DNA from: Planctomycetota bacterium
GTDB lineage: Bacteria > Planctomycetota > Planctomycetia > Planctomycetales > Planctomycetaceae
Length of the DNA stretch: 32,847 nucleotides
Reading direction: 5' to 3'
NCBI GenBank assembly: GCA_018242565.1
Contig: JAFEBR010000999.1
Coordinates: 1 to 32,847, forward strand
The number at the start of each line of letters is the position of its first letter. Within the stretch, counting starts at the first letter, position 1. The translations under genes and the position numbers were made by a program. The notes beneath the pieces are model-generated. The model worked only from the letters and a program-made list of their open reading frames with translations, ran no database searches and was not told the origin of the DNA. Positions 2,390 through 32,773 of the stretch are shown piece by piece.

Positions 2390-2650
2390 ACAAAGTGAGC
2401 ACAGAGTGAGGAGTCGCTAAGGGCACTCTAAACCTGCCCTGCGCGGCACGCAAGAGCGATCTGCGATCGGGAGGCTGCGTCGCGCTCATGATAATTTCCT
2501 GGCGAACGCCGGCGCAGTTGAAGCGCGGAGGGCAGGTCGAACCTGGGAATCGGCGCGAGGTGTCCGGACAGCCAGGAAATGCAGCCGGTTACGAGTTCCG
2601 TGAACGGCTTGATTCCGTTAAAATCCAGGCATACCACGGCCCCCCTGACA

Positions 2651-2654
2651 GGAG
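2651..2654 (+). promoter_or_regulatory. GGAG ribosome binding site that decides the start of the LarA-like gene
   Basis: GGAG within CAGGAGTCC lies 11 bases before the ATG at 2666. The spacing is slightly long, but there is no such site before the alternative ATG at 2579, so the shorter protein is favoured. Confidence 0.45.
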
Positions 2655-2665
2655 TCCACAGCGCG

Positions 2666-4789: not shown

Positions 4790-7700
4790 ATGCCCCTCAT
4801 GTCCCAAGCTTCCCTGGCAGACGAGCCTGTACAGTCCCATCCGCAAGACGAGCGGAGCGGATTAAGTTCGCGCAGTTTTATCTGCCTGGCGGTCACGCAG
4901 GCACTCGGCGCGCTCAACGACAACATGTTTCGCTGGCTGGCGATCGGTGTCGGAACGCACCTGCTGGCCCGCGATCGCATCGCCGCGTTGGGCCAGATCG
5001 CCGCCGACGCCCCGGAAGTGCTCGAGATCCGCAAAACGGCCGCAGTCGAAGCCCTGTCGTGGGGGATCTTCTGGTTCACACTTCCGTATCTGCTGCTGCC
5101 GGTATACGCCGGCTGGCTGGCCGACCGGTTCAGCAAGCGCAGCGTCATCGTCTGGTGCAAAGTTGCTGAAATCGTCTTGATGCTGCTGGTGCTGGGTTCA
5201 ATTCTGTCGGGGCAGGCCGCCTTGATGTTTGCCGTCCTGTTTCTGGTCGGGGCCCAGGCGGCTTTATTTGGGCCCGCCAAGTACGGCAGTATTCCGGAAA
5301 TGCTGCGGACCGACAGCCTGTCGGCCGGCAACGGGGTGATGGCCATGGTCACGGTCGTGGCCTCGGCAGTGGGGACAGTGGCCGGGTTGAAGCTGGCGTC
5401 GGTCACCGGAACCTACGGCACGGAAAACATGGGGCTGTCGGCGGGCGCCCTCGTCGGCACGGCGGTCGCAGGCTGGCTGGCCAGCCTCGGGATCCACGCA
5501 TTTCCGGCGGGCGAGCCGGCACTGGCGTTTCCGCTGGACCCCGTCACCCGGAGTTGGTCGCAACTCAAACTGTTGGCCGCAAACCGGTCGCTGCTGCGCA
5601 CGGCACTGGGCATTGCGTTTTTCTATTCGCTGGCGACGTTGACGCAGGCGAACGTGAAATTGTACGGCGAGGTGGTTCTGCAACTGGGAGAAAACGGCGT
5701 TTCATGGTTGCTATTGGGGCTGGTCGTGGGGGTCGGGGTAGGAAGCGTGCTCGCCGGCAAATGGTCCGCGGGGCGGGTCGAACTGGGCATTGTGCCGCTG
5801 GGCGCGTTGTCGATTGTGGTGTCGTCGCTGGCACTGTTCTTCGCGGGCAGTGGGATTGATCCGCAGCAGGATGTCTCGCGGCAGCATGCGTACTACCTCT
5901 CGCTGTTCTGCCTGGTCTGGCTGGGGGCCAGTGCGGGCCTGTTCGACGTTCCGCTGGAGGCGTTTCTGCAGCACCGCAGCGCCCGTGAAACGCGCGGTAC
6001 GCTGCTGGCGGCGAGCAATTTTGTGACGTTTGTGGGAATTCTGTGTACGCCCGCCATTTTGTACCTGTCGGAACATGTCTTCAAATTCTCGGCCCGATCG
6101 GCTTTTCTGGCTGCGGGACTGGCCACGATTCCGATTGCCTTCTACGTGATCATTCTGTTGCCGCAGGCGACCATTCGCTTCGGCACCTGGCTGCTGAGTC
6201 GCACCGTGTACCGGTTGCGAATTTATGGACGCGACAACCTGCCGGAAACGGGCGGTGCGCTTTTGGTCGCGAACCACGTATCGTGGCTCGATGCAATTTT
6301 CATCCTGATCGCGTCTTCGCGGCCGATTCGGATGCTGGCGTACGCCGATTACGTGCAGGGACCGTTCATCAGTTGGCTGACGAAGCTGTTCGGGGTAATT
6401 CCCGTGAAGGCCAGCGAGGGACCCAAGTCGCTCGTGCGGTCGCTCAACACGGCCCGCGAGTCGATCAAGCAGGGAGAACTGGTCTGCATCTTCGCCGAGG
6501 GGGCGCTGACACGCACGGGCCAACTGCAGCCGTTTCAACGCGGGTTGCTCAAAATTGTGGAGGGGACCGGCGCCCCGGTGATCCCCATTTATCTGGATGG
6601 ATTATGGGGCAGCATTTTCAGTTACTTCAAGGGTAAGTATTTTTGGAAGTTGCCGCGGCGCTGGCCTTATCCAGTCGCCATCTTGTTCGGGAAGCCGCTG
6701 CGCGACCCGGACAACGTGCATGATGTACGGCAGGCTGTTCAGGAGTTGGGAGTGGAAGCCATGGAATATCGGAAGAACGAAGAATTGAATCTGCCGCGGT
6801 TGTTTCTGCGGTCGTGCCGCAGAAGCCGACGGCGCCCGAAGGTGGCAGATTCCGGGGGTATGGACCTGACCGGGGGCGAACTGCTGCTGCGAACCCTGAT
6901 CGTCAAACGCGTGCTGGAACGGCTGGTCTTGCAGGCCGACGAAAAATTTGTGGGGGTGCTGCTGCCCCCTTCCGTCGGCGGAGTCATCGTAAATGCCGCC
7001 TTGCCGTTGACCGGCCGCATCGCCGTCAACCTGAATTACACGGCTTCCAGAGAGACGATCGACCATTGCATTCAGGCGGCCGAGATCCGGCACGTGATCA
7101 CCAGTCGCCTGTTCATGTCGAAAATGAAACTCGAGATCTCGGCTCCGGTCGTGTACCTCGAAGACTTCAAAGATCAGGTCACAGCGCTCGATAAAGCGGT
7201 CGCCGCACTGCAGGCGCATATCGTGCCGGTGACGCTTCTGGAGCGAATGTTCGGCCTGACGCGCATCAAGGGAGACGACCTGCTGACGATCATCTTCACT
7301 TCGGGATCGACCGGCGAACCGAAGGGGGTCATGCTGACGCACCACAACATCCGCGGCAACGTCGATGCGATCGAACAGCTTTTCCAGCTCAAAGGGAGCG
7401 ATGTGCTGCTGGGGGTCCTGCCGTTCTTCCACTCGTTCGGTTTCACGGGCACGTTGTGGACGGTCTTGTCGCTCGATCCCAAGGGGGTTTACCATTTCAA
7501 CCCGCTCGACGCCCGCGTGATCGGGACGCTGTGCGCCACCCACAAGGTGACGATCATGATGGCAACCCCCACGTTTTTGCGGGGCTACATCAAGCGCGTC
7601 GAACCCGAGCAGTTCAAAACGCTGGATGTTATCGTCACGGGTGCCGAAAAGATGCCGAGTGACGTGGCCCAGGCCTTCCACGACCGCTTCGGCGTGCGTC

Positions 7701-8383
7701 CGTTCGAAGGCTACGGCACGACCGAATTGTCGCCGGTTGCCGCGGTGAACATTCCGGATCATCGCTCGACCGATGCCAACCAGAAGGGAACAAAGGAAGG
7801 GACGGTGGGTCGCCCGCTGCCCGGCACGAGTGCCAAGGTCGTCGATCAGGATACGTTCGCCGAGCTGGGACTCGATCAACCCGGCTTGCTGCTGATCAAG
7901 GGCCCCAATGTGATGCGTGGGTATCTGAATGATCCGCAGAAGACGGCCCAGGTGATTCGCGACGGGTGGTACATCACCGGCGACATCGCCAAGATCGACA
8001 GCGAGGGGTTCATCACCATCACCGATCGCGCCAGCCGTTTCTCCAAAATCGGTGGCGAGATGGTTCCGCACATCAAGATCGAAGAAATCCTGCAGCGGAT
8101 CGCCGCCTCGGGCTCGAATGAAGAAACCGAATTGTACGTGGCGGTGACGTCGATCCCCGATGAGAAAAAGGGTGAACGGCTGGTGGTCGTGCATCGACCA
8201 CTGGCGAAATCGCTCGACCAGGTGATGGCCGAATTGAATGCGGCGGGGTTGCCCAACCTGTGGATCCCCTCGCGCGACAGTTTCGTGGAAGTGGCAGACA
8301 TCCCCCATCTGGGAACCGGCAAGCTCGACCTGCGGGGGATCAAACTGCTGGCCTTGGAGAAATTCGGCCTCGCCAAGTCTTAA
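4790..8383 (+). CDS. Trifunctional LplT-PlsC-acyl-ACP synthetase fusion (lysophospholipid transport and reacylation)
   Basis: A 1197-residue inner-membrane protein joining three activities. Residues about 25-445 are a major-facilitator transporter like LplT: FICLAVTQALGALNDNMF at the first helix, the loop motif GWLADRFSKR (108-117), and many hydrophobic helices. Residues about 460-670 are a PlsC-type acyltransferase with NHVSWLD (495-501, the NHx4D motif) and FAEG (568-571). Residues about 690-1197 are an AMP-forming acyl-ACP/acyl-CoA synthetase with TSGSTGEPKG (837-846), YGTTE (975-979), TGD ending at D1065 and the late catalytic K1178 in GTGKLDL. In E. coli LplT and Aas (which already joins the last two domains) are separate neighbours that flip 2-acyl lysophospholipids inward and reacylate them; here all are one chain. 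ATGs at 4790 and 4799 are both possible, neither with a strong Shine-Dalgarno site. Confidence 0.92.
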   Translation: MPLMSQASLADEPVQSHPQDERSGLSSRSFICLAVTQALGALNDNMFRWLAIGVGTHLLARDRIAALGQIAADAPEVLEIRKTAAVEALSWGIFWFTLPYLLLPVYAGWLADRFSKRSVIVWCKVAEIVLMLLVLGSILSGQAALMFAVLFLVGAQAALFGPAKYGSIPEMLRTDSLSAGNGVMAMVTVVASAVGTVAGLKLASVTGTYGTENMGLSAGALVGTAVAGWLASLGIHAFPAGEPALAFPLDPVTRSWSQLKLLAANRSLLRTALGIAFFYSLATLTQANVKLYGEVVLQLGENGVSWLLLGLVVGVGVGSVLAGKWSAGRVELGIVPLGALSIVVSSLALFFAGSGIDPQQDVSRQHAYYLSLFCLVWLGASAGLFDVPLEAFLQHRSARETRGTLLAASNFVTFVGILCTPAILYLSEHVFKFSARSAFLAAGLATIPIAFYVIILLPQATIRFGTWLLSRTVYRLRIYGRDNLPETGGALLVANHVSWLDAIFILIASSRPIRMLAYADYVQGPFISWLTKLFGVIPVKASEGPKSLVRSLNTARESIKQGELVCIFAEGALTRTGQLQPFQRGLLKIVEGTGAPVIPIYLDGLWGSIFSYFKGKYFWKLPRRWPYPVAILFGKPLRDPDNVHDVRQAVQELGVEAMEYRKNEELNLPRLFLRSCRRSRRRPKVADSGGMDLTGGELLLRTLIVKRVLERLVLQADEKFVGVLLPPSVGGVIVNAALPLTGRIAVNLNYTASRETIDHCIQAAEIRHVITSRLFMSKMKLEISAPVVYLEDFKDQVTALDKAVAALQAHIVPVTLLERMFGLTRIKGDDLLTIIFTSGSTGEPKGVMLTHHNIRGNVDAIEQLFQLKGSDVLLGVLPFFHSFGFTGTLWTVLSLDPKGVYHFNPLDARVIGTLCATHKVTIMMATPTFLRGYIKRVEPEQFKTLDVIVTGAEKMPSDVAQAFHDRFGVRPFEGYGTTELSPVAAVNIPDHRSTDANQKGTKEGTVGRPLPGTSAKVVDQDTFAELGLDQPGLLLIKGPNVMRGYLNDPQKTAQVIRDGWYITGDIAKIDSEGFITITDRASRFSKIGGEMVPHIKIEEILQRIAASGSNEETELYVAVTSIPDEKKGERLVVVHRPLAKSLDQVMAELNAAGLPNLWIPSRDSFVEVADIPHLGTGKLDLRGIKLLALEKFGLAKS

Positions 8384-16484: not shown

Positions 16485-17612
16485 ATGAACACAACGATTA
16501 CTTATACCGGCGCCGGCCAACCCGATGACGAGGACTTCTCGTTAAAGAGTGAGAAGCCGGCCGCCAAGCCCGAACAGGTGCTGTTTGCCCGGTACGAAGA
16601 AGTCGCCTGGTCTGAAGAACTGCAGTGGGACACCCGCTACCGTAAGCAGCGACTGCTAGGTGCCGGGGGCCAGGGAGCGGTGTATCTCGCCGACCGGTTG
16701 GGAGCTGACGGATTCCTGCGTCCGGTGGCCCTCAAGGTCTTCTCTCCTGAAACGTACTGCGATGCCGAGTCGTACCTGAAAGACATGCAGGCCTGCGCGC
16801 GGATCAGCGCGCGGGTGGCGCTGATTCAATCGGATCATGTCGTCGACATTCACGACTTCATCGAGCGCTGTGGCATCCGCCTGATGGAAATGGAATGGCT
16901 GGATGGTTACGACCTGCGCGAAGTCCTCAGCCAGAAGATGCTCGATTTGACTACGGAAAAAGTCAGCATCGAGCGTCGGCAATACGTCGAGCGCGTGATT
17001 CTGACGAGCGGTCCGGTGCAACCACGACTGTTGCCGGGAGTCGCCATCGCGGTGCTGCGCGACTGTCTGTCGGGCCTGGCGGCGCTGCATGCTGCCGGGA
17101 TTGTGCATGGCGACATCAAACCTGCCAACATCATGCTGACCCGGACCGGCAATGCGAAAATCATCGACATCGGTACGGCGATCGACCTGCGCGGATCAAC
17201 CGTGCGACGCATGTGGTCACCTGCCTACGCAGCCCCGGAAGTTCTCGAGGGGGGAGACAACACACCCCGATCGGACCTCGCGAGCCTGGGCTATGTGCTG
17301 GTCGAAATGCTCGCGGGTCGCCCCGTGTTCGAAGGGTGGGGTTCGATCCCGGAATTGATCCTGGAAAAGAAAACCCTCGATCGTCGCGTCGCTCAAATAT
17401 TGCCCCCGGAAGTCAGCAGCAATGAACTGCTTCTGAATCTGTGCCAGCAGTTGATTGCGCCGAATCCCGAACAGCGGTTTATGAGCGCCCAGTCGGCTGA
17501 CGTCGGACGCAAAGGGGCCGCCGATTTTCATAGGCAACTCGTCAAAGGCAATTTGGCCAGCGAATACGACTACGACATCCGGGGCTGGCTCGAACAACTC
17601 GCCGCTGCCTGA
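16485..17612 (+). CDS. Soluble Ser/Thr protein kinase with altered catalytic motifs
   Basis: A 375-residue Hanks-type kinase. Motifs in order: glycine loop LGAGGQGAVY (58-67), ATP-binding K84 in VALKVF, a likely C-helix Glu at E95, catalytic loop VHGDIKPAN (207-215, with D210, K212 and N215), metal-binding D228 in IIDIGTA, APE (250-252), and D264 and R331 in the C-lobe. Two positions differ from consensus: HRD reads HGD and DFG reads DIG. The key catalytic residues remain, so activity is expected, but the missing Arg of HRD means it is not an RD kinase and may not need activation-loop phosphorylation. An insert of about 30 residues (150-183) lies before the E-helix. The N-terminal 48 residues are acidic and probably disordered. 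There is no membrane segment or sensor domain, unlike many planctomycete kinases. The giant envelope genes follow after 275 bases. Confidence 0.92.
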   Translation: MNTTITYTGAGQPDDEDFSLKSEKPAAKPEQVLFARYEEVAWSEELQWDTRYRKQRLLGAGGQGAVYLADRLGADGFLRPVALKVFSPETYCDAESYLKDMQACARISARVALIQSDHVVDIHDFIERCGIRLMEMEWLDGYDLREVLSQKMLDLTTEKVSIERRQYVERVILTSGPVQPRLLPGVAIAVLRDCLSGLAALHAAGIVHGDIKPANIMLTRTGNAKIIDIGTAIDLRGSTVRRMWSPAYAAPEVLEGGDNTPRSDLASLGYVLVEMLAGRPVFEGWGSIPELILEKKTLDRRVAQILPPEVSSNELLLNLCQQLIAPNPEQRFMSAQSADVGRKGAADFHRQLVKGNLASEYDYDIRGWLEQLAAA

Positions 17613-17887
17613 AGCGGCCTTGTGAAAAGATCACCGGCACTTTGCCGCCAGACGAGCATTGCCAGGGTGGCGGTACGATCGCTTCTTTCGGTTTCCCGGC
17701 TTTCGGCGGTAGAATCAGCAGATCGCGTTCGGGCGGACTATTCCGAATCTTCGAGGGGTTCGCAGCCGAATCCCAAGCCCGCCGAATAAATCCCCCAGAC
17801 TCCCGACAATTCCAAACATAAACTTCCGTGCAGGAGACGGCGGACGTATGATCAAGGTTCATGCCGCCTGAATGTGAGAGTATGCAA

Positions 17888-20800
17888 ATGGGGATCGGCA
17901 GCCGATGGATTCGGAACCTCGTGCTCTGCGTGAGCATGCTGAGTACCGTTGCGCCCTGCCCGGCCCAGACAACATCCGGGGCGGATGATCCGCCGTCGGG
18001 TACGAGCGATTCCTCGGCCACCAGCAAACCGGCCGACACGCCGACCAGCAAGACCAGCCCCAAAGGGAATTCGGGTTCAATCGGCCCAGGGTTCGACATT
18101 CGCTTTCTGGAAGGCCCCGACGGACGCCCCGTCGCCGTGCCGGACAAGATCCAGCTTGAGGAATTCCTCAAATGGCGGACCGAGCAGGACTCTCGTGACG
18201 GGCCTCCTCCAGCCGCCGTCTCGAGCCTGTTCTTCGACGGGGTCGTCGCAGAAGACCGGGTCCTGTTGACGGCCCAGGTCGAAATTGTTGTCACCCGCGA
18301 ATCAGGCTGGCAGCGACTGTCGATCGGGATGTCGGAAGCGACTCTCCGTGATGCCCCCACTTACAAAGGGCCAGGCCGGGCGCTTCCAGGCGGGCTCAAC
18401 GCGGATGGCAACCATACCTGGTGGATTCAAGGCAAGGGGACGCACGTCCTGACACTGCCGTTGTCGGTGCCCATTCTGAAACTGGCGACCCGTAACGGCA
18501 TTCAACTCTCGCTGCCGACGACGGCCGCCCGCAGCAAACTAGTGTTGAAAATCGATTCACCCCACATTTCGGTCAAGGTTCCTGAAACCTCGACGCTGAA
18601 AACGAAACCGGCTGCGCAATCGACCGAGGTCGAAGTGATCGGTCTGGGGAATCGTCTCGATCTGGTCTGGCAGGTTTTGCCCGACGCCCAACCAACCGAC
18701 ACCGCGCTGGAAGTGACCACCTCGGTCGTCGCCACGGTCATCGATGTGCAGACGGTCAACATTGAATCAACTCAGCGCATTCAATCTCTGGGACAACAGG
18801 GAACTTTTGAGGAACTGCGAGTCGCGCTGCCGGCAGGATACGAACTGCTGCGGTTGGAGGGAAAAGAACTCAAAGATCACCACCTCGATCCAGCGAACCC
18901 GCAGCAGATGCTGGTCACTCTCAAACGACCGACAACGGGGCCCATCGACCTGAAGTGGACGTTAAGTCGGGCCGAGTCGCTCGTCATCGGGACGCCGTTC
19001 ACACTCGAAGGCTTTGACGTGGAGCGGGCCCGGTTGCAGACGGGTTACCTGGCGGTCGTCGTTCCAGGAGATTTCCGGGTCATTCCTGAAGAAGACAAAT
19101 TCCTGCAGCGCATCGACCTGGGGGACCTGCCCGGAACGATGCGTCAGGTCCCGGCCAAACTGGCGTATCGATTTCTGAACCGGTTGCTGCTGCGACTGAA
19201 ACTGCAACACATCGAACCGTACATTACGGTGGAACCGTCGATCATGCTGCACTTCACCGCTGACGCGGCCGAATGTGAATGCAGCTATCGCCTGCAGGTG
19301 GTTCGCGGCAGCATTTCGGCGTTTCGCCTGCGCTGGCCGCAGTGGAAACAGCAGGGCTGGATCGTCACCGACACTGAACTCCCTTCAAATCTTGAAATAT
19401 CCACGGCGACCACGGCGGATGACACCGACAGTCTGCAGTTTGTATTTCTGGAACCGACGCGAGGTGCTCCGGAAATTCGTTTCCGGGCCCGACGGCCGAT
19501 CGTGGGGGCGGGTGAGCCGTTTGTCATTTCGTTTCCCGTCTCGGATTCCGTCCGCGCGCCGGCGACCAAGCTGGCAACAGTGACCGCCGAGAATGTCGAA
19601 GTGGCTCTTCGTCCGACCGAAGGTACGATGGTCCCGTCGCTCGTCGATTCCCCCACCCGCTTTCCTTTGCCACGGGAATGGCAGTCCCTGCCCCGCACCG
19701 ATTACCGGCTCGAAACCGTCCGCCCCGAACTGCTCGTGGCACTCTCGGTGCATACTCGAAAAATTCAGGGGACGACCGAACTCGCCGCGGGCATTCGCGG
19801 GGGCGTCGTCACCACTCGGCAGAAATTTCTGTTCGACATCGCCTACGAACGCGTGTCACAACTGAGATTCAGCGTGCCCGAGGGGACCAGCGGCGACCAG
19901 TTCAAGTTCTTTTCCGGAAATGAACGCAAACTGAATTCAGTGGCCATCCCCGCCAGCAACGGCAGCCTGGCCGAGATCCGGGTGACACTCGAAGCGCCCA
20001 GCATCGGACATGTGGAAATCGAGGCGCAGCATACCAGTCCCGAATCGAAAGCGACGGCGGCTGATCCGACCACCCGATTGCTCATTCCCGTGCTGAAATC
20101 GCTGGATGTCGAGATCTCCGAGGCGCAGTTGACGATTCAGGACTCGGCCGCACGCGATGCGGTCGTAGAAGGATCGGGCTGGCACCGCAGGCTGAGCCCC
20201 GATGGCTCGTTTGTGTGGACCACCAACACGCTGCCGACACCGCTGTCGGTCACACTCTCCCGCAACTTTGCCCGTCCGCACCGCATGCAGGCCCCGAAGG
20301 CCCTCATCCGCTCGGTGATCACCGCGGGCGGAATCATTGAGAACCGCGCCCAATACCGGCTGTCTGAGGGAGTGTCGCAGATTCAAGTCACACTGCCGCG
20401 AGAACTGCGCACCAGTGACATCGAATTTTGGTGGAACCGCAACGAATTGGCCGTGACTCCCGAACTCGTGGCGGACTCCGGCATGATTCGTTACGACATT
20501 TTGCTCCCGGAACGGTCGGGGTCCTCGGATCGGGTGCTGACGATTAACTACCGCTCGCGAATCGGCACGGCCAGCCGGCTCGGCTCGGCATACCGCCTGA
20601 TCGCCCCGCACCTGCCTGACGATTTGCGGCTCGGTCAGGTCTACTGGGATGTGGAACTGCCCTACCAGGAGCACCTGTTCACGGTCCCCGAAGGCTATGC
20701 GTCGGCATTTCGCTGGGAATTTGGACGCACACTCTGGAGCCGGCATCCGGAGATGTCGGACCAGGAACTGCAGGCCTGGTTCGGCACGGCCTCTGGACCA

Positions 20801-21313
20801 GCGCCACCCACGATTCGCCCGGGTGACAATCATTACCTGTTCGCCTCGACCGGTGCCGCGCCGGACCTGGAATTCCACTCGCTCCGCAAATGGAGCCTGA
20901 CGCTGTTGGGCGCCGGCTTCGCGCTGGTACTGGGCCTGCTGGTCACACGCTGGCCGGCGGCCCGGCATCCTGCTGTGCTGCTGGCATCGGTCTTTTTCGT
21001 TGCACTGTTGGCGGTCTGGTACGCAGAACCGGTGCTGGTCCTGTTGCAACCGGCACTGCTGGGTTCCGTGCTGGCGATGCTGGCCAGTGGATTTCAGTCG
21101 CTGCAGCTCCGCAGTCGACAGCGAGTGCTCTTGTCGCTTGGTCCGGCCAGCGGTTTGTCCGTCCCCGCGGCGTCGCAGCCGAAGATGCAGGCCGTGGCCA
21201 TTGGGTCCAACGAACAGACGTCGGTCCGACTGCAGGCGGAACTGGCCCCGGCCCCCGAACGCGGGTCGAGCCAGATGTCCGGACGCTTGTCGGAAACGGG
21301 ATCGCACACATGA
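17888..21313 (+). CDS. Giant exported membrane-anchored beta-rich protein (unit 1 of the three-unit system)
   Basis: A protein of about 1141 residues of no recognised family. It starts with a Sec-type signal, MGIGSRWIRNLVLCVSML, with a cleavage site near CPAQ (about 24-27), then a Ser/Thr/Pro-rich linker. A short helix LEEFLKWR begins at residue 90. About five beta-rich modules follow, starting near residues 111, 292, 462, 641 and 814; each has a strand ending in L-R/Q-x-x-L/W-P, a variable loop, a second strand and a partner strand with P-x-x-G. The C-terminus has three membrane helices at about 1000-1075 and a roughly 65-residue tail. Most of the chain should lie outside the cytoplasmic membrane. 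In-frame ATGs at 17861 and 17882 also exist; GAGAG seven bases before 17888 and the signal peptide favour 17888. The stop overlaps the next start in ATGA. Confidence 0.82.
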   Translation: MGIGSRWIRNLVLCVSMLSTVAPCPAQTTSGADDPPSGTSDSSATSKPADTPTSKTSPKGNSGSIGPGFDIRFLEGPDGRPVAVPDKIQLEEFLKWRTEQDSRDGPPPAAVSSLFFDGVVAEDRVLLTAQVEIVVTRESGWQRLSIGMSEATLRDAPTYKGPGRALPGGLNADGNHTWWIQGKGTHVLTLPLSVPILKLATRNGIQLSLPTTAARSKLVLKIDSPHISVKVPETSTLKTKPAAQSTEVEVIGLGNRLDLVWQVLPDAQPTDTALEVTTSVVATVIDVQTVNIESTQRIQSLGQQGTFEELRVALPAGYELLRLEGKELKDHHLDPANPQQMLVTLKRPTTGPIDLKWTLSRAESLVIGTPFTLEGFDVERARLQTGYLAVVVPGDFRVIPEEDKFLQRIDLGDLPGTMRQVPAKLAYRFLNRLLLRLKLQHIEPYITVEPSIMLHFTADAAECECSYRLQVVRGSISAFRLRWPQWKQQGWIVTDTELPSNLEISTATTADDTDSLQFVFLEPTRGAPEIRFRARRPIVGAGEPFVISFPVSDSVRAPATKLATVTAENVEVALRPTEGTMVPSLVDSPTRFPLPREWQSLPRTDYRLETVRPELLVALSVHTRKIQGTTELAAGIRGGVVTTRQKFLFDIAYERVSQLRFSVPEGTSGDQFKFFSGNERKLNSVAIPASNGSLAEIRVTLEAPSIGHVEIEAQHTSPESKATAADPTTRLLIPVLKSLDVEISEAQLTIQDSAARDAVVEGSGWHRRLSPDGSFVWTTNTLPTPLSVTLSRNFARPHRMQAPKALIRSVITAGGIIENRAQYRLSEGVSQIQVTLPRELRTSDIEFWWNRNELAVTPELVADSGMIRYDILLPERSGSSDRVLTINYRSRIGTASRLGSAYRLIAPHLPDDLRLGQVYWDVELPYQEHLFTVPEGYASAFRWEFGRTLWSRHPEMSDQELQAWFGTASGPAPPTIRPGDNHYLFASTGAAPDLEFHSLRKWSLTLLGAGFALVLGLLVTRWPAARHPAVLLASVFFVALLAVWYAEPVLVLLQPALLGSVLAMLASGFQSLQLRSRQRVLLSLGPASGLSVPAASQPKMQAVAIGSNEQTSVRLQAELAPAPERGSSQMSGRLSETGSHT
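17888..21313 (+). repeat. Protein-level paralogous unit 1
   Basis: First of three diverged copies of one architecture: export signal, LEEFL helix followed by PPP, beta module with FFDGVVAEDRVLLTAQVE, further modules, and a three-helix membrane unit (DNA 20885-21112) containing EPVLVLLQPALLGS. Confidence 0.7.
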
Positions 21314-24150
21314 CCGGTTTGACACGCTGCCGGGTCCGTATGTGTGCAAGGCTGCTGAGCATTGCGGGGATTCTAATCGCTGGCGGACTGGCACTGACCA
21401 TTCACGCCGACGAAGTCGAAGGGTTCAATGAAACCGATTCACAGATTCGGCGAATCAAGGTTCCGGTCCAGCGACTCGATGCCTGGCTCAAAGGAGACTG
21501 GCAGCCACTGCCACTCAGTGAGATTGAGCGGCACTTTGATGACGCCGGCCGGTTGATCGTGCGTCCCACGCCGCAGATCGAACAAGCCGAATATTCCGCG
21601 ACCTTTGCCGACGGCGAAATCCGTAGCGGCCAGTTCTCGTGGTCGGTTCACCGGTCCGCCAACTCGCCGGCGGTTCTGGCACTCGGCTCGTTGAACCTCA
21701 ATCTGCAGAACCTGGCCTGGACCCATCGTAACCAGCCAGCCACAAAACAGCCGGTGATCTGTGGTATTTCTCCGCAGGGACACCCCTTATTGCTCGTCGA
21801 ATCGCCGGAAGGCACCGTCACCGGAACGTGGTCCGCCTCGGGCCGGCAACTGGCGGCCAGCACCGAATTCGACCTGCAACTTCCCAGGGCGAACCGTTCG
21901 ATTCTGAATCTGCAGGTGCCCCGCGGCATCGTCGTGACGAGTTCTGTGGGCGAAGTCCAACCCCTCTCGCAGGCCGCACTCGCCGAGACTTCCCCCTGGC
22001 AGGTGCGTCTGGGGGGCCGCACGCGCACGCGACTGCGGTTTACGATGGCCCCCGATCCGGCTGCCGCTCGACCCCGCAATGTGGTGCGTTCGAACATCAA
22101 CTACGTCGTACGGGCAGATGCCGTGCGAATTCTCGCAGATTTCGAATTCGACGTGCTCGAATCGTCCGTGAACGAACTGGTGTTTTCCCTGACGCCGGAA
22201 GTGCAGGTGACTTCGGTCGAATACGGCGATGGAGTGCCGATGTTGTGGACACAACACACCGTGGACCAGGAACCGGTGGTCACCGTCAAATTCCCCGAAC
22301 CGATTTCGGGCCCTGGCACAAAATTTCAATTGCGGGCGATCTCACAGGTCAAACAATTCGGACCACGGGAACTGCCCCGCATTCAACCTCTGCAGGCCGT
22401 CGTCGCCGACTGCAAGGTTGTGCTGGGCCTGCAATCTCCCTTCACGGCGGCCGATGTGCGGGCTGACGGTTACCGGCAACTCAGCCTGACGACCGGGGGC
22501 GACGGAGAAACGCTGCAGTTCCGCCAGTACCAACCGGGGGCGACGATAACCGTGGTCCCGGCAGAAAATCGGTCTGACCTGACATGTCGGGCCGTGTCAC
22601 TGCTGCAGTGCGACAGCAACCAGACGAACCTGACCACACAACTGGAATGCAGTGCCTTTGCGGGTTCGGTCTATTCGCTGTCGTTCCGCATTCCCGCCGA
22701 GTGGGAGGTGTTCGACGTGCGGAGCGTCGATTCCAGTTCCGACCGCGAACTGACCGGCCACGAAATCCGCGAGGCCCCGCAGAACGGGCCGATGTTGCGG
22801 GTCGATTTTCGTAATTCCATCAATTCCTCGCATCCGCAGCGGTTTCGCATCCTGGCAAGACGGCGTCCCTCGAAGACGGGCGACCAGTTGACGCTTCCCT
22901 TGTTCGCCCCGGCGGGGGCCACTTCGGTCGAGCATCTGGCGGTCGTCTCTGCCGACCACGAATGGCGACCGACATTGGTCGATCCGACCAGCGCCGAATC
23001 GGTCAGCCTCGAATCGCTTCCCGTTGAATATCGGAGTCTCGACTTCCTGGCCAACCGACTCGCCGACCCGCTTGGCAGTCCGGTGGTGTTCCGCAGTTTC
23101 GGAGCAGCCGACGCCGTCGACCTTCGCCTGGATCCGGTGTCCGCCAACAGTTCTGCCGACAAGTCGGATGACGATCCGCCCCAGGCCGCGGGCCCGGTCA
23201 AATCGGTCGTGCAACTTGATCGCGATCCGAAACGAGTTCAGGAAACCGGTCCCGTCGCCATCGAGACCACGTTGCGCATTTCGGATGCCGTGGCCGGATT
23301 CGATGAATACCGGGCGCGCATTCACACCACGACGTGGGACGATAACCACCCGCTGCGATTTCGCCTGCCACCGCCGGCCGAATTGATGGCGGTTTCCGTC
23401 GCCGGGAAGAGCCTGTCGATCGCTTCCGAACAGGGGCATTTTGTGGTTCCCAAGCCCAGCCGGGAACCAGGAACGGCCGGCGGTGCGATGACCATTGAAA
23501 TTGACTACCGGGTGCCCGCCGAATTGCGGGCCCTGCCCGATCGCCGCGCGGTGCTGATCCCCACGCCGATGGCTCCGGTGCTGAAGTTCGATCTGTCGAT
23601 TCTCGTATCGCCGCACCTGACCATCGAAGCTGCCGGGGGTTGGATGCCGCCGGAGTCGCAGTCCGAAGCCCGAGAGGGCTGGCAGCGGTTGCTGGGCCCG
23701 TTCGCCAGCCGACAGAACGATCGCTGGTTCAACCCCCTGGATCTCTCGAAATGGCGGCAGTCGTTGCGGACGGCGGGCCGCAGCCTGCAGTCTTCGACCG
23801 ATCTGACAGTGCAGCGGACGCAGTTCGCCAGCCTGCCTGCAGACCTGCAGATTGTGGTCTGGCAGAACTCTTCAGTCACCGGAACGACCATTGCCGCCTG
23901 GGCTCTGTGTGGCTGGCTGTGCCTGATTTGTCGCATGCACCCCTTCCGCGGCACTCGGGTCATCGGGGCTATCGTTCTGGCGGGACTCTGTGCCGCCACC
24001 CATCTGGCTCCTCTCGTTTACTCACAGATCACGGCGGGTGGGCTGGTGGGGTTCGTGGTGGCGGCGCTGCTTCCCAACGCAATCCTGAAATGGCGGCAGG
24101 CTCCCGCCGTGGTGCTGGCACAAAATTCCGTGGGCAGCACCCGCACCTAC
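21310..24150 (+). repeat. Protein-level paralogous unit 2
   Basis: Second copy: signal, VQRLDAWL helix, module with YSATFADGEIRSGQFSWSV, the block LGGRTRTRLRFTMAPD that matches LGNRLDLVWQVLPD of unit 1 in position and spacing, and a three-helix membrane unit (DNA 23878-24093) containing APLVYSQITAGGLVG. It is the shortest copy, with about 947 residues. Confidence 0.65.
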
Positions 24151-27100
24151 ATGTCGGCGAGCCTGCTGCTCATCGCTTCGCTTTCGACCGTGTTAACGAT
24201 TTGGTGCGGCCGCCTGGCTGACGCCCAAGACAACCCGTCGGGATTGCCAGCCAGGCCCGACGCCCGGGGCGCGGCAACCCGGCGGACATTTGATGTGATC
24301 ATCCCGGTGCACGAAAACGGAGCACCGCCCGAGACTCCCGAGCTGGTGTATGCCCAGCAGGAACTGCTTGATTTTCTGCAACAACGAGCCAGTCAGCAAA
24401 GTCCACCCCCGTATTTGATCGGTGCCTGTCATTATGCTGGTCAGCTCGATGGTTCACGGCAGATTTCCGTGAAAGCCAGTTTTGATGTGCATGTCTTCGC
24501 AACGGAGCCGATCGTGCACGTCACGCTTCCCGTCGGAAACGCGAACCTGGGTGGCAACGACGCGTGCCTGGTCAATGGCCAGGCGTTCCCCCTGCTGAAC
24601 AGTCGCAACGGACGTGGCGTACTGATCGGCTTGCCCGGTTTAGCTCCCGAACCTGCTGCCCCCCTGCCTCCGCAATCCGAGAACGCCGGCGCCAACGCCA
24701 GTGAACCGGCCGTTCCGCTTGCATTCGCCAGCCCGATCCGCCAGCAGACGTTTCACATTGAACTGAAACTCGAGCCCCCGACCGAAGTGAGCTCCGAGGG
24801 ACTTTCGGCCGCCGTCGTGTCGATTCCCGAAACTTTCCGCACCCAGGCCAGCTTCAGCAGTTCAGTACCCGAACTGGTCATCGGCCTGGCCGCGGGAGAC
24901 GTGAATCGCAAAAACGGACCGGCCGTCTGGCCCCAGACGTCGCGACAATCGCTGACTCCGGCCCCCTGCCGCCAGCTTGTGTATCGCTGGGGCTCGCGCG
25001 CCGAGCTCGAAGCGCCGCCCGTTACGGAAGCCCAGGTCGAACAATCGTGCCTGGCCGATTTCCTGCCCGGCGCCCTGCAACTGCGTTATCACCTGGGGTA
25101 TCGGTCCAAGACGGGCCGACTGGATGCTGTCCGCTGGGATTTGCCCCCCGGCCACGTGCTGCAGTCGATTCAGGCTCCGCATGTTTCGGGCTACCGGTTC
25201 CGGCCCCTGGCGAATGGTCACCGGGAACTCCTCATCGAGTTTTCGAAACCGCAGGCGGACGAATTCTCGATCACGGCGACATTCGTGGTCGATTTCGATC
25301 CACAGAAATCTCCGTTCCAACTGCAGTTCATGAATGCTGGCCGGACCACCGGTGCCGACCGACTTCGTATCGAAAACCGATTGAACCAGGTCGCGATCCG
25401 TCACGCGTCGGATTGGCTCATCACGCTTTCGGAAGAGTCTGCCACGCTCGCGACGGTGAAGCCCAAATCGGTCGATCAGTTTTTGAAAGAATGGAACCCC
25501 ACCGGGGCCCGGCCGCAACTGGCGTTTGAACTCGACCAGGTCGATCAGCTTAGCGTCTCCGTGGCGGCGAAGCAGTTCTCGCCTACAGTGCGGGGCACCT
25601 CCATCGGCCGCGTCTCGGCTCACCGTCTGGATTGGACCTACGACGCCGAAGTTGAACAGCCCGCGGTATCTCGTTTCATTTACCGCCTGCAGGTCGATCC
25701 TCAACTACGCGTCCGGAACGTGACGGTCAAAGAGGCAGGCGCCGACCGCCTGCTGCGCTGGTCGCGTGTGCGAGATACGCTGGTGCTCTTTTTGAATGAC
25801 CGAGCCACACGCACCCAAGCAATTCGAGTCGAAGCCAGCTTGCCAATATCGGGAACCCGAGAGTTTGTCCTGCCCCGTATCCAGTTTCTCGGGGCGGTCG
25901 CTGGCCCGGAACGACTGGAAGTCTTCGGCTCACAAGACACGCTCGTACACTTTACGAATCCCGATGATTTCCCGCTGACCGCGACTCCCACCGAGCGTCC
26001 GACCAACACCGCTGAACGCCTCGTGCTCAGCCTCGATGTCTTGCCGCAACACGTGATGCCCCGCCTGATTGTCGAACGCATGCCGTCCAAGGTGTTCGCC
26101 GAAATGACGACGATTCTGAAGCGTGACCAGCAATCGTGGCAGGCCACCACGGCGATCGCGTTTCGAATTCTGTCGGGGCAGGTGTCTGAGTTTTCGATCG
26201 ATATGCCCGAGGACGTCGCCACGGGCATGGAAATCACAACGCAGCCGAAGGCGCAAATCACCAGGCTGAATGAAGCTGACGGACGGGTCCAGTTCCAAAT
26301 GCATACCGCCGAGTCGATTCAGACGCGAATGGTGGCGATCCTGGCCCATCCTGGGCACCATATCCACCAGCCATGGAAATTGCCCGACATCCGTACAGGA
26401 CAGGTGGTTGTCGGTTCTTCTCAAATTATTGTCTGTGGCGATGGAATCGAACCGTTTGAGCCGACGCTGCAACCTGACGCCACGGCCAAAGTACCTGATT
26501 GGCTCGAGTCGACCGACCTGCCCGAAATCCCGCAGAATTCGCGAATCTACTCATGGCGCGGGACTCAGCCTTTTCTGGAATTTCGCGAACCGCGAAAGAA
26601 ACGACAGACGCAGATCGATACGGCACAACTCGATGTCTGGTGCGATGCCGACGGGACGCTGCGCGGCTGGCTGGGGCTCGCACTAGCGGACAGCGACGAA
26701 AGCCGCGTGGAACTCACCTGGCCGGCAGGCTGTCGCCTGTCATCCCTGTACGCCGCCGGACGGTTTCTGGACCACACCGCCGCGGCGGCCCACGACTCAA
26801 GCCAGTTGCAGGTACAGTTGCCGGCCGATCCCACCGAACCGGTCGTCTGGCTGTCGTGGGTCTTTCCGTCACAGTCGGCCCCGGCGCTCACACGGCCCCT
26901 GGCCTTGCCGATTCCCTGGCCCCGCGACCTGCCGGTCCAGCACCTGGCCGTCAATGTGCACTCGGCCGGCGAGTATCGGCTGGAAACGCATGCCGCGGCA
27001 GTCTCCGCTGCGGGCACACACCATGAACCCGTCTCACCAACCCTGCTCGTGACGAATGACGAACGCCGCGATACAGACAGCCTCGTCGGCCAGCGTGCGG

Positions 27101-27423
27101 ATGTCGATCTGGGTGGCACTGGGATGACGCCGCATCTCGACAGCCTCGTGCAGATTCGAAATAACCGAACCTGGCGCGGCTTATTCGCTGTGCTGTGGGC
27201 CGGTACTGGGGGCCTGCTGGCCTGGTTCAGCGCCAAACTGCGTCGCTGGCTGACGGCACGCGAACTGATCGCGTGGCTGGTCCTGGCGGTGAGTACCTGG
27301 CTGACCTGCTCGCCCGTGTGGGGCCTCGGCTTTCTGGGCATCGCCTGCGCCCGCCTCCTCGCGAGCCGAGGTACCGGGAGCGTTTCACCAGATCCTGCTT
27401 CCGCCGCTGCCAGTGCCAACTGA
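21310..27423 (+). CDS. Giant two-unit exported membrane protein (units 2 and 3 of the three-unit system)
   Basis: A protein of 2037 residues of no recognised family, translationally coupled to the preceding gene (4-base overlap). Residues 11-34 form a signal peptide or anchor (LLSIAGILIAGGLALTIHA). First half: helix VPVQRLDAWL (51-60), beta-rich modules near 257-346, 430-519 and 649-738, then three membrane helices (about 857-928). A fourth hydrophobic segment starts at M948 (MSASLLLIASLSTVLTIWC) and ends in LADA (969-972), like an internal signal peptide. Second half: helix QQELLDFLQQR (1016-1026), modules near 1035-1157, 1247-1331, 1436-1514, 1595-1682 and 1767-1854, then three membrane helices (about 1955-2020). 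Each half matches the layout of the preceding protein. The frame is open upstream to 20890, but that part overlaps the first gene and precedes the signal, so it is not used. No catalytic motif was found. Confidence 0.85.
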   Translation: MTGLTRCRVRMCARLLSIAGILIAGGLALTIHADEVEGFNETDSQIRRIKVPVQRLDAWLKGDWQPLPLSEIERHFDDAGRLIVRPTPQIEQAEYSATFADGEIRSGQFSWSVHRSANSPAVLALGSLNLNLQNLAWTHRNQPATKQPVICGISPQGHPLLLVESPEGTVTGTWSASGRQLAASTEFDLQLPRANRSILNLQVPRGIVVTSSVGEVQPLSQAALAETSPWQVRLGGRTRTRLRFTMAPDPAAARPRNVVRSNINYVVRADAVRILADFEFDVLESSVNELVFSLTPEVQVTSVEYGDGVPMLWTQHTVDQEPVVTVKFPEPISGPGTKFQLRAISQVKQFGPRELPRIQPLQAVVADCKVVLGLQSPFTAADVRADGYRQLSLTTGGDGETLQFRQYQPGATITVVPAENRSDLTCRAVSLLQCDSNQTNLTTQLECSAFAGSVYSLSFRIPAEWEVFDVRSVDSSSDRELTGHEIREAPQNGPMLRVDFRNSINSSHPQRFRILARRRPSKTGDQLTLPLFAPAGATSVEHLAVVSADHEWRPTLVDPTSAESVSLESLPVEYRSLDFLANRLADPLGSPVVFRSFGAADAVDLRLDPVSANSSADKSDDDPPQAAGPVKSVVQLDRDPKRVQETGPVAIETTLRISDAVAGFDEYRARIHTTTWDDNHPLRFRLPPPAELMAVSVAGKSLSIASEQGHFVVPKPSREPGTAGGAMTIEIDYRVPAELRALPDRRAVLIPTPMAPVLKFDLSILVSPHLTIEAAGGWMPPESQSEAREGWQRLLGPFASRQNDRWFNPLDLSKWRQSLRTAGRSLQSSTDLTVQRTQFASLPADLQIVVWQNSSVTGTTIAAWALCGWLCLICRMHPFRGTRVIGAIVLAGLCAATHLAPLVYSQITAGGLVGFVVAALLPNAILKWRQAPAVVLAQNSVGSTRTYMSASLLLIASLSTVLTIWCGRLADAQDNPSGLPARPDARGAATRRTFDVIIPVHENGAPPETPELVYAQQELLDFLQQRASQQSPPPYLIGACHYAGQLDGSRQISVKASFDVHVFATEPIVHVTLPVGNANLGGNDACLVNGQAFPLLNSRNGRGVLIGLPGLAPEPAAPLPPQSENAGANASEPAVPLAFASPIRQQTFHIELKLEPPTEVSSEGLSAAVVSIPETFRTQASFSSSVPELVIGLAAGDVNRKNGPAVWPQTSRQSLTPAPCRQLVYRWGSRAELEAPPVTEAQVEQSCLADFLPGALQLRYHLGYRSKTGRLDAVRWDLPPGHVLQSIQAPHVSGYRFRPLANGHRELLIEFSKPQADEFSITATFVVDFDPQKSPFQLQFMNAGRTTGADRLRIENRLNQVAIRHASDWLITLSEESATLATVKPKSVDQFLKEWNPTGARPQLAFELDQVDQLSVSVAAKQFSPTVRGTSIGRVSAHRLDWTYDAEVEQPAVSRFIYRLQVDPQLRVRNVTVKEAGADRLLRWSRVRDTLVLFLNDRATRTQAIRVEASLPISGTREFVLPRIQFLGAVAGPERLEVFGSQDTLVHFTNPDDFPLTATPTERPTNTAERLVLSLDVLPQHVMPRLIVERMPSKVFAEMTTILKRDQQSWQATTAIAFRILSGQVSEFSIDMPEDVATGMEITTQPKAQITRLNEADGRVQFQMHTAESIQTRMVAILAHPGHHIHQPWKLPDIRTGQVVVGSSQIIVCGDGIEPFEPTLQPDATAKVPDWLESTDLPEIPQNSRIYSWRGTQPFLEFREPRKKRQTQIDTAQLDVWCDADGTLRGWLGLALADSDESRVELTWPAGCRLSSLYAAGRFLDHTAAAAHDSSQLQVQLPADPTEPVVWLSWVFPSQSAPALTRPLALPIPWPRDLPVQHLAVNVHSAGEYRLETHAAAVSAAGTHHEPVSPTLLVTNDERRDTDSLVGQRADVDLGGTGMTPHLDSLVQIRNNRTWRGLFAVLWAGTGGLLAWFSAKLRRWLTARELIAWLVLAVSTWLTCSPVWGLGFLGIACARLLASRGTGSVSPDPASAAASAN
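24151..27423 (+). repeat. Protein-level paralogous unit 3, fused to unit 2
   Basis: Third copy: internal signal-like segment from M948 (ATG at 24151), QQELLDFLQQR helix followed by PPP, module with YAGQLDGSRQISVKASF, further modules, and a terminal three-helix unit (DNA 27166-27369) containing SPVWGLGFLGIA. It closely mirrors the N-terminal part of unit 1 (LEEFLKWRTEQ then PPP then the FDG strand). Confidence 0.7.
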
Positions 27424-31015: not shown

Positions 31016-32773
31016 CTACGGCGACTGCGGAGAATTGCGAGTCGCCGCCGATGTTCCCGCCGGTGCTGACTCAGGATTCGCCGCTGGCTGCGGCGCCGCC
31101 TGCTCGGCTTCAGTCGCAGTGATCAGTCCGTCGTGGTCGAGATCGAGCTTATTAAACAACGACAGGGGGCCCAGGAACTCGCGCTGTGACACATCCCCGT
31201 CACGGTTGCGATCCATCTTGCGGAACCAATCGGGACCTGCCGACGGGACCTGGATGATCGGTGCCGTGGTATCGCCCCGGTTGTTCATCGGCTGGTTGCG
31301 AAACAGCACCGGTTTTCCCAAACCCAGGTCGGCCCGAAAGCGACCGGCCAGTTCGACCGCGGTAATCGAGTCGTCGCCATCCACATCAAACGCTTTCAGG
31401 CGTTCAAAGCCATGAGCCAATTCGCGCCGACTTAAACGGCGGTCGTTATTCTGATCCATGACTTCAAACACGGACTTACCGTCGTGAGAGATCACCATTT
31501 CGATTCGACTTTGAGACGCCGCCGACTCTTGATCAATGTACGCCAGAATCTCGTCAAGCGTGACCATGCCGTCGCTGTTCCGATCGACCGTCTTGAAGTC
31601 GGCATCGGGTAACCCAAGAGCCGGAAATTCTGCTTCCGACAGGTAACCATTCTTGTCGCCATCGGCTGATTTGAATTTGGTGGTCCTGATCAACGCTCGG
31701 CTATCCTTGAGGTTGGATCGATTGGGTGAAACATGCATCTGCAGGCCCACACCGGCCGCGGACAAAGTCACGCGGCCCGTCTTGGTGTCGGCGGTGGTCG
31801 CTTTCATGCGATCGTCAACGACAGTCAGTCGCGCTTTGCCTTTCGCCGCCTGCCCTAACTGAGCTTCGAGCACGAGTTGTGGTTCAGGCCGTTTCAAAAA
31901 GGCCTGCAATTCGGCTTTGTTCCAGGTGCCATCGGCGTTTTGATCGAATTCCGCAAAGGCCGCGTCAGACACCGGCAGAAACCGTCGCTCAATTGACGGT
32001 TCGGCCTTGGGATCCGGCGTCTGCCCATAGCGCTGCAGAATCTTCTCGACCGCCAAGGTCGCTGTGGCTTCGTTATCAAACAACAGAAACGGTTGATCGG
32101 TCGCGGCACTTGCCCCGATTACGGGCTGATTGGGCAATTGTGGATTGCGGAACGGCTGCAATTCTTCGATCGTAAACGCTTCGTCTTCGTCCAGATCGAG
32201 CTTGCGCAAAGTTCGCGCCGCGGCGGCCAGTTCCTGGCGTGACAATCGGCCATCGTGATTGAGGTCCAGCAAACCAATCAGATCGACCCCTTGCGATGCC
32301 CGTTGAGGTTTTACCGACAGTTCAAACGTATTTCCGAACACTCGGTCGAGATAGCCACCGAGTTCATCGGCAGAAACTTTGTCGTCGGCAGGCGCGAGAT
32401 CGACAGCCTCCCAGCGTTCCGCCAGCAGAATTGTGTCGCGTGCCGTTGGAGATTTCACCAGCGGCGGGACATTTTTGGCCTCGTCGCGGTTCAACACGCC
32501 ATCGGCGTCTTTATCGTAGTTTTTGACAATTTGTGCTGCAAATGCTTCGCGGACCGCTTTCAATCCATGGCCATCAACCTGAAGCCGCACCTGAATGAAC
32601 AAGGGTGAGGTCGGTGCCAGCAGCACGAGATTCTGCACATCGCGATCGGCCTCGGCGGCCGAAAGCGCCGCGGGGGCCGCTTCCCAAGCCGCGAACAGGC
32701 CAGCCGCGACTAAGCCAGCCGACGTAAACAGCCGCGACAGGGAACGCCGAATTGTGCGCCCAGTTCTATTCAT
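31016..32773 (-). CDS. Secreted protein with ten EF-hand calcium-binding loops
   Basis: A 585-residue exported protein. The N-terminus (RTIRRSLSRLFTSAGLVAAG...) is a signal peptide with probable cleavage near LSAAEA (38-42). Twelve-residue EF-hand loops (D-x-D/N-x-D/N-G-x-h-x-x-x-E) start at residues 87, 170, 193, 277, 371, 397, 440, 463, 521 and 544. Seven have the consensus Gly at loop position 6; those at 193, 440 and 463 have E, R and D there and may bind weakly. Residues 126-137 may be an eleventh, decayed loop. Three pairs are only 23 residues apart (170/193, 440/463, 521/544), tighter than in calmodulin and closer to dockerin-like spacing. The stretch between about 290 and 365 is beta-rich and not EF-hand. 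The C-terminus is Ala/Pro-rich. A calcium-dependent structural or adhesion role outside the membrane is inferred. AAGG five bases before the ATG supports the start. Confidence 0.88.
   Translation of the reverse strand: MNRTGRTIRRSLSRLFTSAGLVAAGLFAAWEAAPAALSAAEADRDVQNLVLLAPTSPLFIQVRLQVDGHGLKAVREAFAAQIVKNYDKDADGVLNRDEAKNVPPLVKSPTARDTILLAERWEAVDLAPADDKVSADELGGYLDRVFGNTFELSVKPQRASQGVDLIGLLDLNHDGRLSRQELAAAARTLRKLDLDEDEAFTIEELQPFRNPQLPNQPVIGASAATDQPFLLFDNEATATLAVEKILQRYGQTPDPKAEPSIERRFLPVSDAAFAEFDQNADGTWNKAELQAFLKRPEPQLVLEAQLGQAAKGKARLTVVDDRMKATTADTKTGRVTLSAAGVGLQMHVSPNRSNLKDSRALIRTTKFKSADGDKNGYLSEAEFPALGLPDADFKTVDRNSDGMVTLDEILAYIDQESAASQSRIEMVISHDGKSVFEVMDQNNDRRLSRRELAHGFERLKAFDVDGDDSITAVELAGRFRADLGLGKPVLFRNQPMNNRGDTTAPIIQVPSAGPDWFRKMDRNRDGDVSQREFLGPLSLFNKLDLDHDGLITATEAEQAAPQPAANPESAPAGTSAATRNSPQSP

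Follow-up and report, generated by a model that had tools for sequence, protein, structure and literature searches.

Two adjoining giant genes of planctomycetes encode three paralogous beta-array proteins of a probably undescribed envelope system

What do two adjoining giant genes of a planctomycete encode, and what might their products do? The planctomycete envelope is unusual and its periplasm is enlarged. The genes were found in the window (the whole 32,847-nucleotide stretch of Planctomycetota bacterium DNA that was analyzed), and a sequence-only reading had proposed that they hold three tandem paralogous units, one alone and two fused, of an undescribed envelope system. The gene models are as follows.

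17861-21313, plus strand: gene 1, unit 1 (U1), 1150 aa
21310-27423, plus strand: gene 2, fused U2-U3 precursor, 2037 aa

Gene 1 has an equally good start at M10 (17888). The true start of gene 2 is the ATG at 21310, where the two genes overlap by 4 nt at the stop of gene 1 (ATGA), and translational coupling of the two genes is inferred from this overlap. A gene 2 start at 20890 was rejected, as it marks only the longest open reading frame. The unit extents are 17861-21310 (U1), 21310-24138 (U2) and 24139-27420 (U3), and the gene pair covers approximately 10 kb. The two genes encode three related proteins, predicted to be exported and membrane-anchored, two of which are made as one chain. In the sections drawn on here, a survey of planctomycete ‘giant genes’ (>5 kb; the Reva and Tummler class) describes these as mostly encoding surface proteins or PKS/NRPS (PMC5177795); gene 2 (6.1 kb) fits the size rule, and those sections mention neither a triplicated coupled pair nor a fusion separated by a signal peptide.

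The relationship among the units was examined by all-against-all profile-profile alignment with hhalign. U1 and U2 aligned with an E-value of 1.2e-40 over 869 columns, U1 and U3 with 3.4e-46 over 977 columns (1.9e-50 in an independent run), and U2 and U3 with 1.8e-30 over 825 columns. Reversed profiles of another unit, used as a control, gave no match better than 0.002, and U1 against its own reversed profile reached 2e-4 over 92 columns. A chance origin of the triplication was rejected because the reversed-profile controls gave nothing comparable. U1, U2 and U3 are full-length co-linear paralogues, a stronger relationship than had been claimed from the sequence. Within each unit, a beta module of about 170 residues is repeated in tandem. 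The parts of U1 are listed below.

17861-21313, plus strand: U1 as a whole (signal peptide, disordered linker, short helix, five beta modules, C-terminal membrane helix bundle)
17897-17944, plus strand: signal-peptide helix (aa 13-28; AlphaFold), followed by APCPAQ at 17951-17968
18155-18190, plus strand: short helix with LEEFL (aa 99-110; AlphaFold), followed by PPP at 18203-18211
18209-18676, plus strand: beta module 1 (approximate borders from the model)
18230-18259, plus strand: FFDGVVAEDR in beta module 1
18644-18670, plus strand: LGNRLDLVW in beta module 1
18707-19174, plus strand: beta module 2 (approximate)
19187-19690, plus strand: beta module 3 (approximate)
19694-20260, plus strand: beta module 4 (approximate)
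20288-20749, plus strand: beta module 5 (approximate)
20888-21118, plus strand: membrane helix bundle, with a conserved LLQPAxxG motif at 21041-21064

The corresponding parts of U2 and U3 are given next; the U2 of the window has about one module fewer than that of its relatives.

21310-24138, plus strand: U2 (signal peptide, N-terminal segment, about four beta modules, three membrane helices)
21604-21633, plus strand: FADGEIRSGQ, first beta module motif of U2
22009-22041, plus strand: LGGRTRTRLRF of U2
24109-24162, plus strand: U2/U3 boundary, a conserved GSTxxxR-type loop, predicted to be cytoplasmic from the inferred topology
24139-27420, plus strand: U3, 1094 aa, with the same architecture as U1
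24148-24219, plus strand: internal signal-peptide-like helix of U3
24214-24228, plus strand: signal-peptidase-I-like site LADA|Q after the internal helix
24358-24396, plus strand: short helix ELLDFL (U3 aa 74-86; AlphaFold), followed by PPP in SPPPYL at 24400-24417
24412-26988, plus strand: about five beta modules, with YAGQLDGSRQ at 24433-24462
27163-27372, plus strand: membrane helix bundle (AlphaFold)

AlphaFold models of U1 and U3 (pLDDT 79 and 76, respectively; pTM 0.42-0.43) agree on a common order of signal helix, short helix, about five beta modules and membrane helix bundle, as had been read from the sequence, and they place the bundle at the C-terminal end, where a membrane unit had been expected. 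The first-module motifs FFDGVVAEDR, FADGEIRSGQ and YAGQLDGSRQ occupy aligned positions, as do the PPP motifs after the short helices of U1 and U3, and LGNRLDLVW of U1 aligns with LGGRTRTRLRF of U2. The proposed L-x-x-F/W-L helix core held for LEEFL in U1 and ELLDFL in U3, both of which lie in modeled helices, but not for RLDAWL in U2, where LEEFL aligns instead with SEIERHF (21517-21537).

Searches of Pfam, NCBIfam, PDB sequences, PHROGs and PADLOC, with single proteins and whole alignments, found no relative of the units, nor did any profile search assign them to a known family; in PHROGs and PADLOC they matched no known phage or defense protein. Scattered weak matches of one or two members to TgpA_N and SBP_bac_10 were judged to be chance or artefacts of open reading frame ends. 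A literature search found no paper describing the gene pair. By fold, U1 and U3 resembled the beta domains of ribophorin I/Ost1, integrin-alpha legs and the N-domains of M1 aminopeptidases in Foldseek, and a search of viral folds gave mostly low-probability matches to tail and envelope beta-proteins, with a few M1- or ITIH-like ones. The units had no match to the catalytic gluzincin domain or the M1 N-domain in Pfam or NCBIfam. Matches to PF17900 in two genomes fall elsewhere than the unit genes.

The distribution of the gene pair was then surveyed, and it proved to be conserved across family, order and phylum. The unit set was present in 118 of 120 genomes of the window's order and in 103 of 294 sampled across the phylum. 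It is therefore not universal in the phylum, as about 65% of the sampled genomes had no match at E 1e-5, a fraction to which divergence and incompleteness contribute. The usual arrangement is gene 1 followed by a fused gene 2-3, and this fusion is the commonest state across the phylum. Versions with three separate genes, which had been suggested as something to look for, were found in two lineages (L134 in genome G118 and L175 in G069). The order and identity of U1, U2 and U3 are kept in the order- and class-level loci and in most of the more distant ones; some lineages have two units only (L161, L162 and L169-L171), so that a complex of strictly three chains cannot be general. An apparent triple fusion in L144 (a 3688-aa open reading frame) was rejected, as the U1 sequence is read in a different frame and the long reading frame simply stays open upstream. 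A plasmid search gave no match. The window's own genome also holds a second copy of U1.

The unit set belongs to no described protein family, and its near-universal presence in close relatives and its occurrence across the phylum suggest that the set probably forms an as yet undescribed structural machine in the cell envelope. For the lineage of the window, the scaffold would be a near-universal housekeeping component. In a transposon study of Planctopirus limnophila, about 20% of the essential genes were of unknown function (PMC10632474). A pair of about 10 kb that is kept in 118 of 120 genomes and has no family model in the libraries tested qualifies as a strong candidate for one of the core parts of the envelope, and it provides a named gene set for deletion, tagging and imaging.

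The fusion of U2 and U3 raises the question of whether the product remains one chain. A strict [AVGS]xA[QED] site follows the U3 helix in 18 of 31 proteins and follows only 6 of 89 U2 membrane helices taken as controls (Fisher p 1e-8), and a loose cleavage motif is found there in 30 of the 31. An internal signal helix and a conserved cleavage motif, the marks of a polyprotein processed by signal peptidase, are thus both present. The conservation of an AxA|Q-type site after the internal membrane helix and before U3 suggests that the fused product is probably cut. The alternative is a single polypeptide with two membrane bundles, in which the AxA-like site is a relic of formerly separate signal peptides. 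An uncut chain would suit the prevalence of the fused form across the phylum, as well as the absence of even the loose site from one of the 31 proteins and of the strict one from 13; however, the strength of the enrichment over control helices and the near-complete retention of the loose motif make this unlikely, though it is a serious contender. If cut, U2-U3 would be a rare candidate for a bacterial polyprotein.

The gene neighborhood offers a further indication of function. A YfbK-type vWA gene lies directly upstream of the units in nine distant genomes from seven families (G121, G134, G136, G170, G188, G199, G230, G251 and G286). An ECF sigma factor, confirmed by Pfam, is found upstream in four of these (G134, G188, G230 and G251), two of which also have a zf-HC2 anti-sigma domain (G188 and G230). 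At L174, 4-nt overlaps run through all four genes. The window's own locus lacks this operon, which was not observed in the order to which the window belongs either; the only YfbK-type vWA match of the window's genome is on another contig. The vWF_A, VWA and YfbK_C domains are carried by the neighbor proteins of the distant relatives, whereas the units themselves have none of them (Pfam). vWA proteins have been proposed as force transducers in clusters that list TPR, tolQ and tolR genes (PMC12204202), but these were not recognized beside the units among the loci and neighbors scanned. The operon of the distant relatives would serve as a readout for whatever the complex senses.

The explanation tentatively favored, at a little under an even chance, is that the three paralogous units form a heteromeric periplasmic scaffold anchored in the inner membrane and linked, in some lineages, to vWA/ECF-sigma sensing. 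A putative heteromeric envelope complex, as the sequence-only reading had suggested, is supported by the export signals, the membrane bundles, the U1-U2-U3 order, the translational coupling and the vWA/ECF-sigma operon. Each unit would be exported by its own predicted signal sequence, would hold an array of four to five beta modules beyond the cytoplasmic membrane and would be kept anchored by its predicted C-terminal helix bundle. The U2-U3 precursor would be cut after insertion, at the internal signal-peptidase-I-type site, to release U2 and U3, and the mature products would be three separate chains, like those of lineages with three genes. These chains may then assemble as a U1-U2-U3 heteromer and cooperate to bridge or brace the wide periplasm. 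Some members of the phylum would make the complex together with the YfbK-type vWA protein. This protein has an anti-sigma zinc finger in some genomes, where it also comes after an ECF sigma factor. In that part of the phylum, the condition of the scaffold probably governs an envelope-stress response by way of the vWA protein. Weighing against this explanation are the lack of the vWA/sigma operon at the window's locus, the many sampled phylum genomes with no match, the lineages with two units only, and the tree of the units, in which the deep branches are weakly supported and U2 and U3 group together in the vWA-linked lineage.

Other functions would also account for parts of these observations. 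The units might instead act as a scaffold like ribophorin I or PIG-T, holding acceptor proteins or glycans beside a membrane glycosyltransferase during lipid-linked glycan transfer at the outer face of the cytoplasmic membrane. Ribophorin I/Ost1 was the top PDB fold match of U1 (Foldseek E 6e-10) and among the top matches of U3 (3e-9), which also included the GPI-transamidase subunit PIG-T; UppP-type undecaprenyl-pyrophosphate phosphatase genes, identified by sequence similarity and motif only, lie convergently downstream at nine loci, and three class-level relatives have a PMT-family glycosyltransferase gene upstream. Ribophorin I (PF04597), a non-catalytic oligosaccharyltransferase subunit, likewise has an export signal, tandem beta domains outside the cytoplasm and a C-terminal anchor (all predicted for the units), and like the units it lacks a catalytic site. 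However, its lumenal region is much shorter than the approximately five modules of a unit, it has one main helix rather than a bundle, and the units are three paralogues with no oligosaccharyltransferase genes, STT3 included, noticed nearby. Membership of PF04597 was rejected at the sequence level, as the units had no profile match; across eight genomes the Ribophorin_I profile gave nothing significant (best E 0.3, outside the unit genes). The TM-scores were low (about 0.13 by query and 0.22-0.34 by target), so the match may reflect a generic similarity of tandem beta-sandwiches, and the neighbors vary, with no transferase fused or constantly adjacent. This function is therefore improbable, although the fold would bear on the origin of lumenal scaffolds if the resemblance exceeds convergence.

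A trans-envelope bridge for lipid or polymer transport, resembling LetB or TamB in action and built from beta-saddle modules, was considered still less probable. The long membrane-anchored beta arrays, their conservation throughout an order and the UppP and HtrA-like neighbors in part of the family are consistent with it, but none of the best 50 Foldseek matches was described as MCE, AsmA or TamB, and models at this pTM allow no judgement on a continuous groove. The lowest probability was given to a surface complex for adhesion or cell-cell contact, with integrin-like beta legs and a MIDAS-type vWA partner. Integrin-alpha chains were strong fold matches (E 5e-10 for U3 and 4e-8 for U1), vWA genes adjoin the units in the seven families described above, in the window's own genome the second U1 copy has a VIT-vWA gene upstream, and its sister species has a VIT frame on the same contig. 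Nevertheless, the helix bundle predicts anchoring in the cytoplasmic membrane rather than exposure at the outer surface, the window's own set has no vWA neighbor, and the integrin-leg matches are a generic tandem-beta signal. The fold of U1 also matches ITIH1, an inter-alpha-inhibitor heavy chain, but the units lack the VIT and vWA domains of such proteins (PF08487, TIGR03788; Pfam negative), and the VIT profile had no significant match to the unit profiles (best probability 7.6%).

A more elaborate form of the favored scaffold is rather doubtful: an envelope machine typical of the phylum, for which no relative has been described, composed of three ribophorin-like beta-array chains, two of them made via a polyprotein cleaved by signal peptidase, that would span the periplasm and have its mechanical state read by a vWA-anti-sigma protein and passed to an ECF sigma factor.

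The units lie on the plus strand in two coupled genes, U1 alone and U2-U3 fused:

17861-21313, + strand: gene 1 (U1), 1150 aa
21310 (ATG) to 27423, + strand: gene 2 (U2-U3), 2037 aa
24214-24228: signal-peptidase-like site after the membrane helix that precedes U3, LADA|Q in the window

The TGA of gene 1 and the ATG of gene 2 at 21310 share a 4-nt overlap; an ATG at 20890 was rejected as the gene 2 start, since all it offers is a longer reading frame than any other. Upstream, 248 nt from gene 1, lies a Ser/Thr kinase gene (16485-17612). Long antisense open frames across gene 1 (e.g., 17542-18360, - strand) are probably due to high G+C content and do not indicate genes.

Profiles were built from relatives' sequences (39 for unit 1 and 35 for gene 2, the latter split at a conserved loop that separates the internal membrane bundle of gene 2 from the membrane helix after it). 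Profile-profile comparison matched U1 with U2 (E 1.2e-40, 869 columns), U1 with U3 (3.4e-46, 977 columns; 1.9e-50 when repeated by a separate comparison) and U2 with U3 (1.8e-30, 825 columns). The controls were far weaker: a reversed profile of another unit gave a best match no better than 0.002, and self-reversed U1 gave 2e-4 across 92 columns. The triplication proposed in the sequence-only reading is real. The motifs named there fall in aligned columns, but the U2 equivalent of LEEFL is SEIERHF and not RLDAWL. Suboptimal U1 alignments were offset by about 170, 340 and 520 residues, which shows U1 to be built of about five modules in a row; similar internal offsets occurred in U2 and U3, and U2 of the window is about one module short of its relatives.

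The gene pair recurs in other planctomycetes: among 120 genomes from the order, all at least 90% complete, 118 match the unit-1 profile, as do 103 of the 294 in a phylum-wide sample. In the commonest form, U1 precedes a fused U2-U3. When each unit was scored against the three profiles, the order U1-U2-U3 was constant across the order and class and held in most, not all, distant loci. Two distant lineages carry three separate genes (locus L134: 1128, 1237 and 1138 aa; locus L175: 1202, 1419 and 1470 aa), and two-unit loci were either fused (L161, L162, L169-L171) or separate (L165-L168, L173).

The membrane helix preceding U3 resembles a signal peptide. For 18 of 31 proteins, a strict [AVGS]xA[QED] site comes after this helix, versus 6 of 89 other U2 membrane helices (p 1e-8); a loose rule gave 30 of 31 versus 49 of 89. 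The motif suggests cutting by signal peptidase between U2 and U3, in agreement with the three-gene lineages; the alternative is that U2-U3 stays uncut.

AlphaFold2 models of U1 and U3 (pLDDT 79 and 76) bore out the claimed common order of elements: N-terminal signal helix, short helix, beta modules and a C-terminal helix bundle of similar length. Module packing is uncertain because pTM was 0.42-0.43. PDB fold neighbours of both models were ribophorin I/Ost1, integrin-alpha chains and M1-type aminopeptidases, with ITIH1 in addition for U1 and PIG-T for U3. No credible match to the units was found in Pfam, NCBIfam, PDB sequences, PHROGs or PADLOC, and a VIT profile matched them without significance; profile searches placed none of them in a known family. 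A ribophorin-like glycosylation scaffold is one rival explanation: ribophorin I/Ost1, of the oligosaccharyltransferase, resembles U1 and U3 in fold, but the Ribophorin_I profile gave no significant match across eight genomes. Ribophorin membership was rejected for want of a sequence relation, and its likeness to the two models is therefore taken as one of fold.

Neighbouring genes varied. Within the window's family, 22 of 34 loci of the window's set have an inositol-monophosphatase-family gene immediately upstream (PF00459 in the single gene tested), a gene similar in sequence to UppP is convergent downstream in nine loci, and HtrA-like genes lie nearby in eight; the window contains neither an UppP-like nor an HtrA-like gene. 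Neighbour genes in related loci bear a prepilin-like DUF1559 signature; assignment of the host to the planctomycetes is based on this signature, on the sequence-only reading and on the pattern across the phylum. In three class-level relatives (loci L095, L098 and L099), HEAT-repeat and PMT-family membrane glycosyltransferase genes precede the units, the HEAT-repeat gene with the start motif LRTLLAWLDDTLPP.

In nine distant genomes from seven families, a YfbK-type vWA gene precedes the units, an adjacency unlikely by chance because each genome holds only one to four such genes. A Pfam-confirmed ECF sigma factor gene lies directly upstream in four of the nine (genomes G134, G188, G230 and G251), and in G188 and G230 the vWA protein begins with a zf-HC2 anti-sigma domain. 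At locus L174, 4-nt overlaps link all four genes. YfbK-like vWA proteins of the phylum have been proposed as periplasmic force transducers (PMC12204202), which would fit a mechanical envelope role for the units.

The three paralogues, whose gene overlap, conserved order and conserved cleavage-like motif are established at the sequence level, are predicted to have export signals, membrane bundles and beta arrays outside the membrane. U2-U3 would be cut into separate chains, and the units would form a heteromer, a scaffold spanning the periplasm; in some lineages its state may be reported via the vWA protein to the ECF sigma factor. A transport bridge and an adhesion complex are rival explanations.

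A second paralogous U1 was present in all 17 family genomes sampled in the phylum survey, followed by its own U2-U3 in the eight loci read (L097, L100, L101, L146-L150). In an approximate tree with weakly supported deep branches, U1, U2 and U3 formed separate groups and the second set clustered with distant-phylum units. These groupings suggest that the triplication is old and, subject to those deep branches, that the window's set is the faster-evolving paralogue. In the window's genome (G000), the second U1 (L132:2706-5963, contig C326) and second U2-U3 (L157:9285-17477, contig C1171) are on different contigs, the latter with a truA-like gene upstream instead of U1; either a split pair or an assembly error would account for this. 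A VIT-vWA gene (TIGR03788-like; L132:2-2395) lies 311 nt upstream of that second U1. In the sister species, a VIT frame is on one contig with the second U1 (G001:C161), and none was seen nearby in the other genera examined. Separate giant VIT-domain open frames of about 2900-3350 aa occur in the window's own genome (L202, contig C1088) and several relatives (L184, L185, L192, L208, L209).

Elsewhere in the window, 2579-3946 encodes a group 22 nickel-pincer-cofactor-dependent isomerase (NF052515, exceeding the curated cut-off). The protein of 31016-32773 (- strand) is similar in sequence to EF-hand calcium-binding families, its NCBIfam matches, lanmodulin among them, all falling under cut-off. 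An MFS, acyltransferase and AMP-ligase fusion at 4790-8383 is an acyl-[ACP]-phospholipid O-acyltransferase (NF006386).
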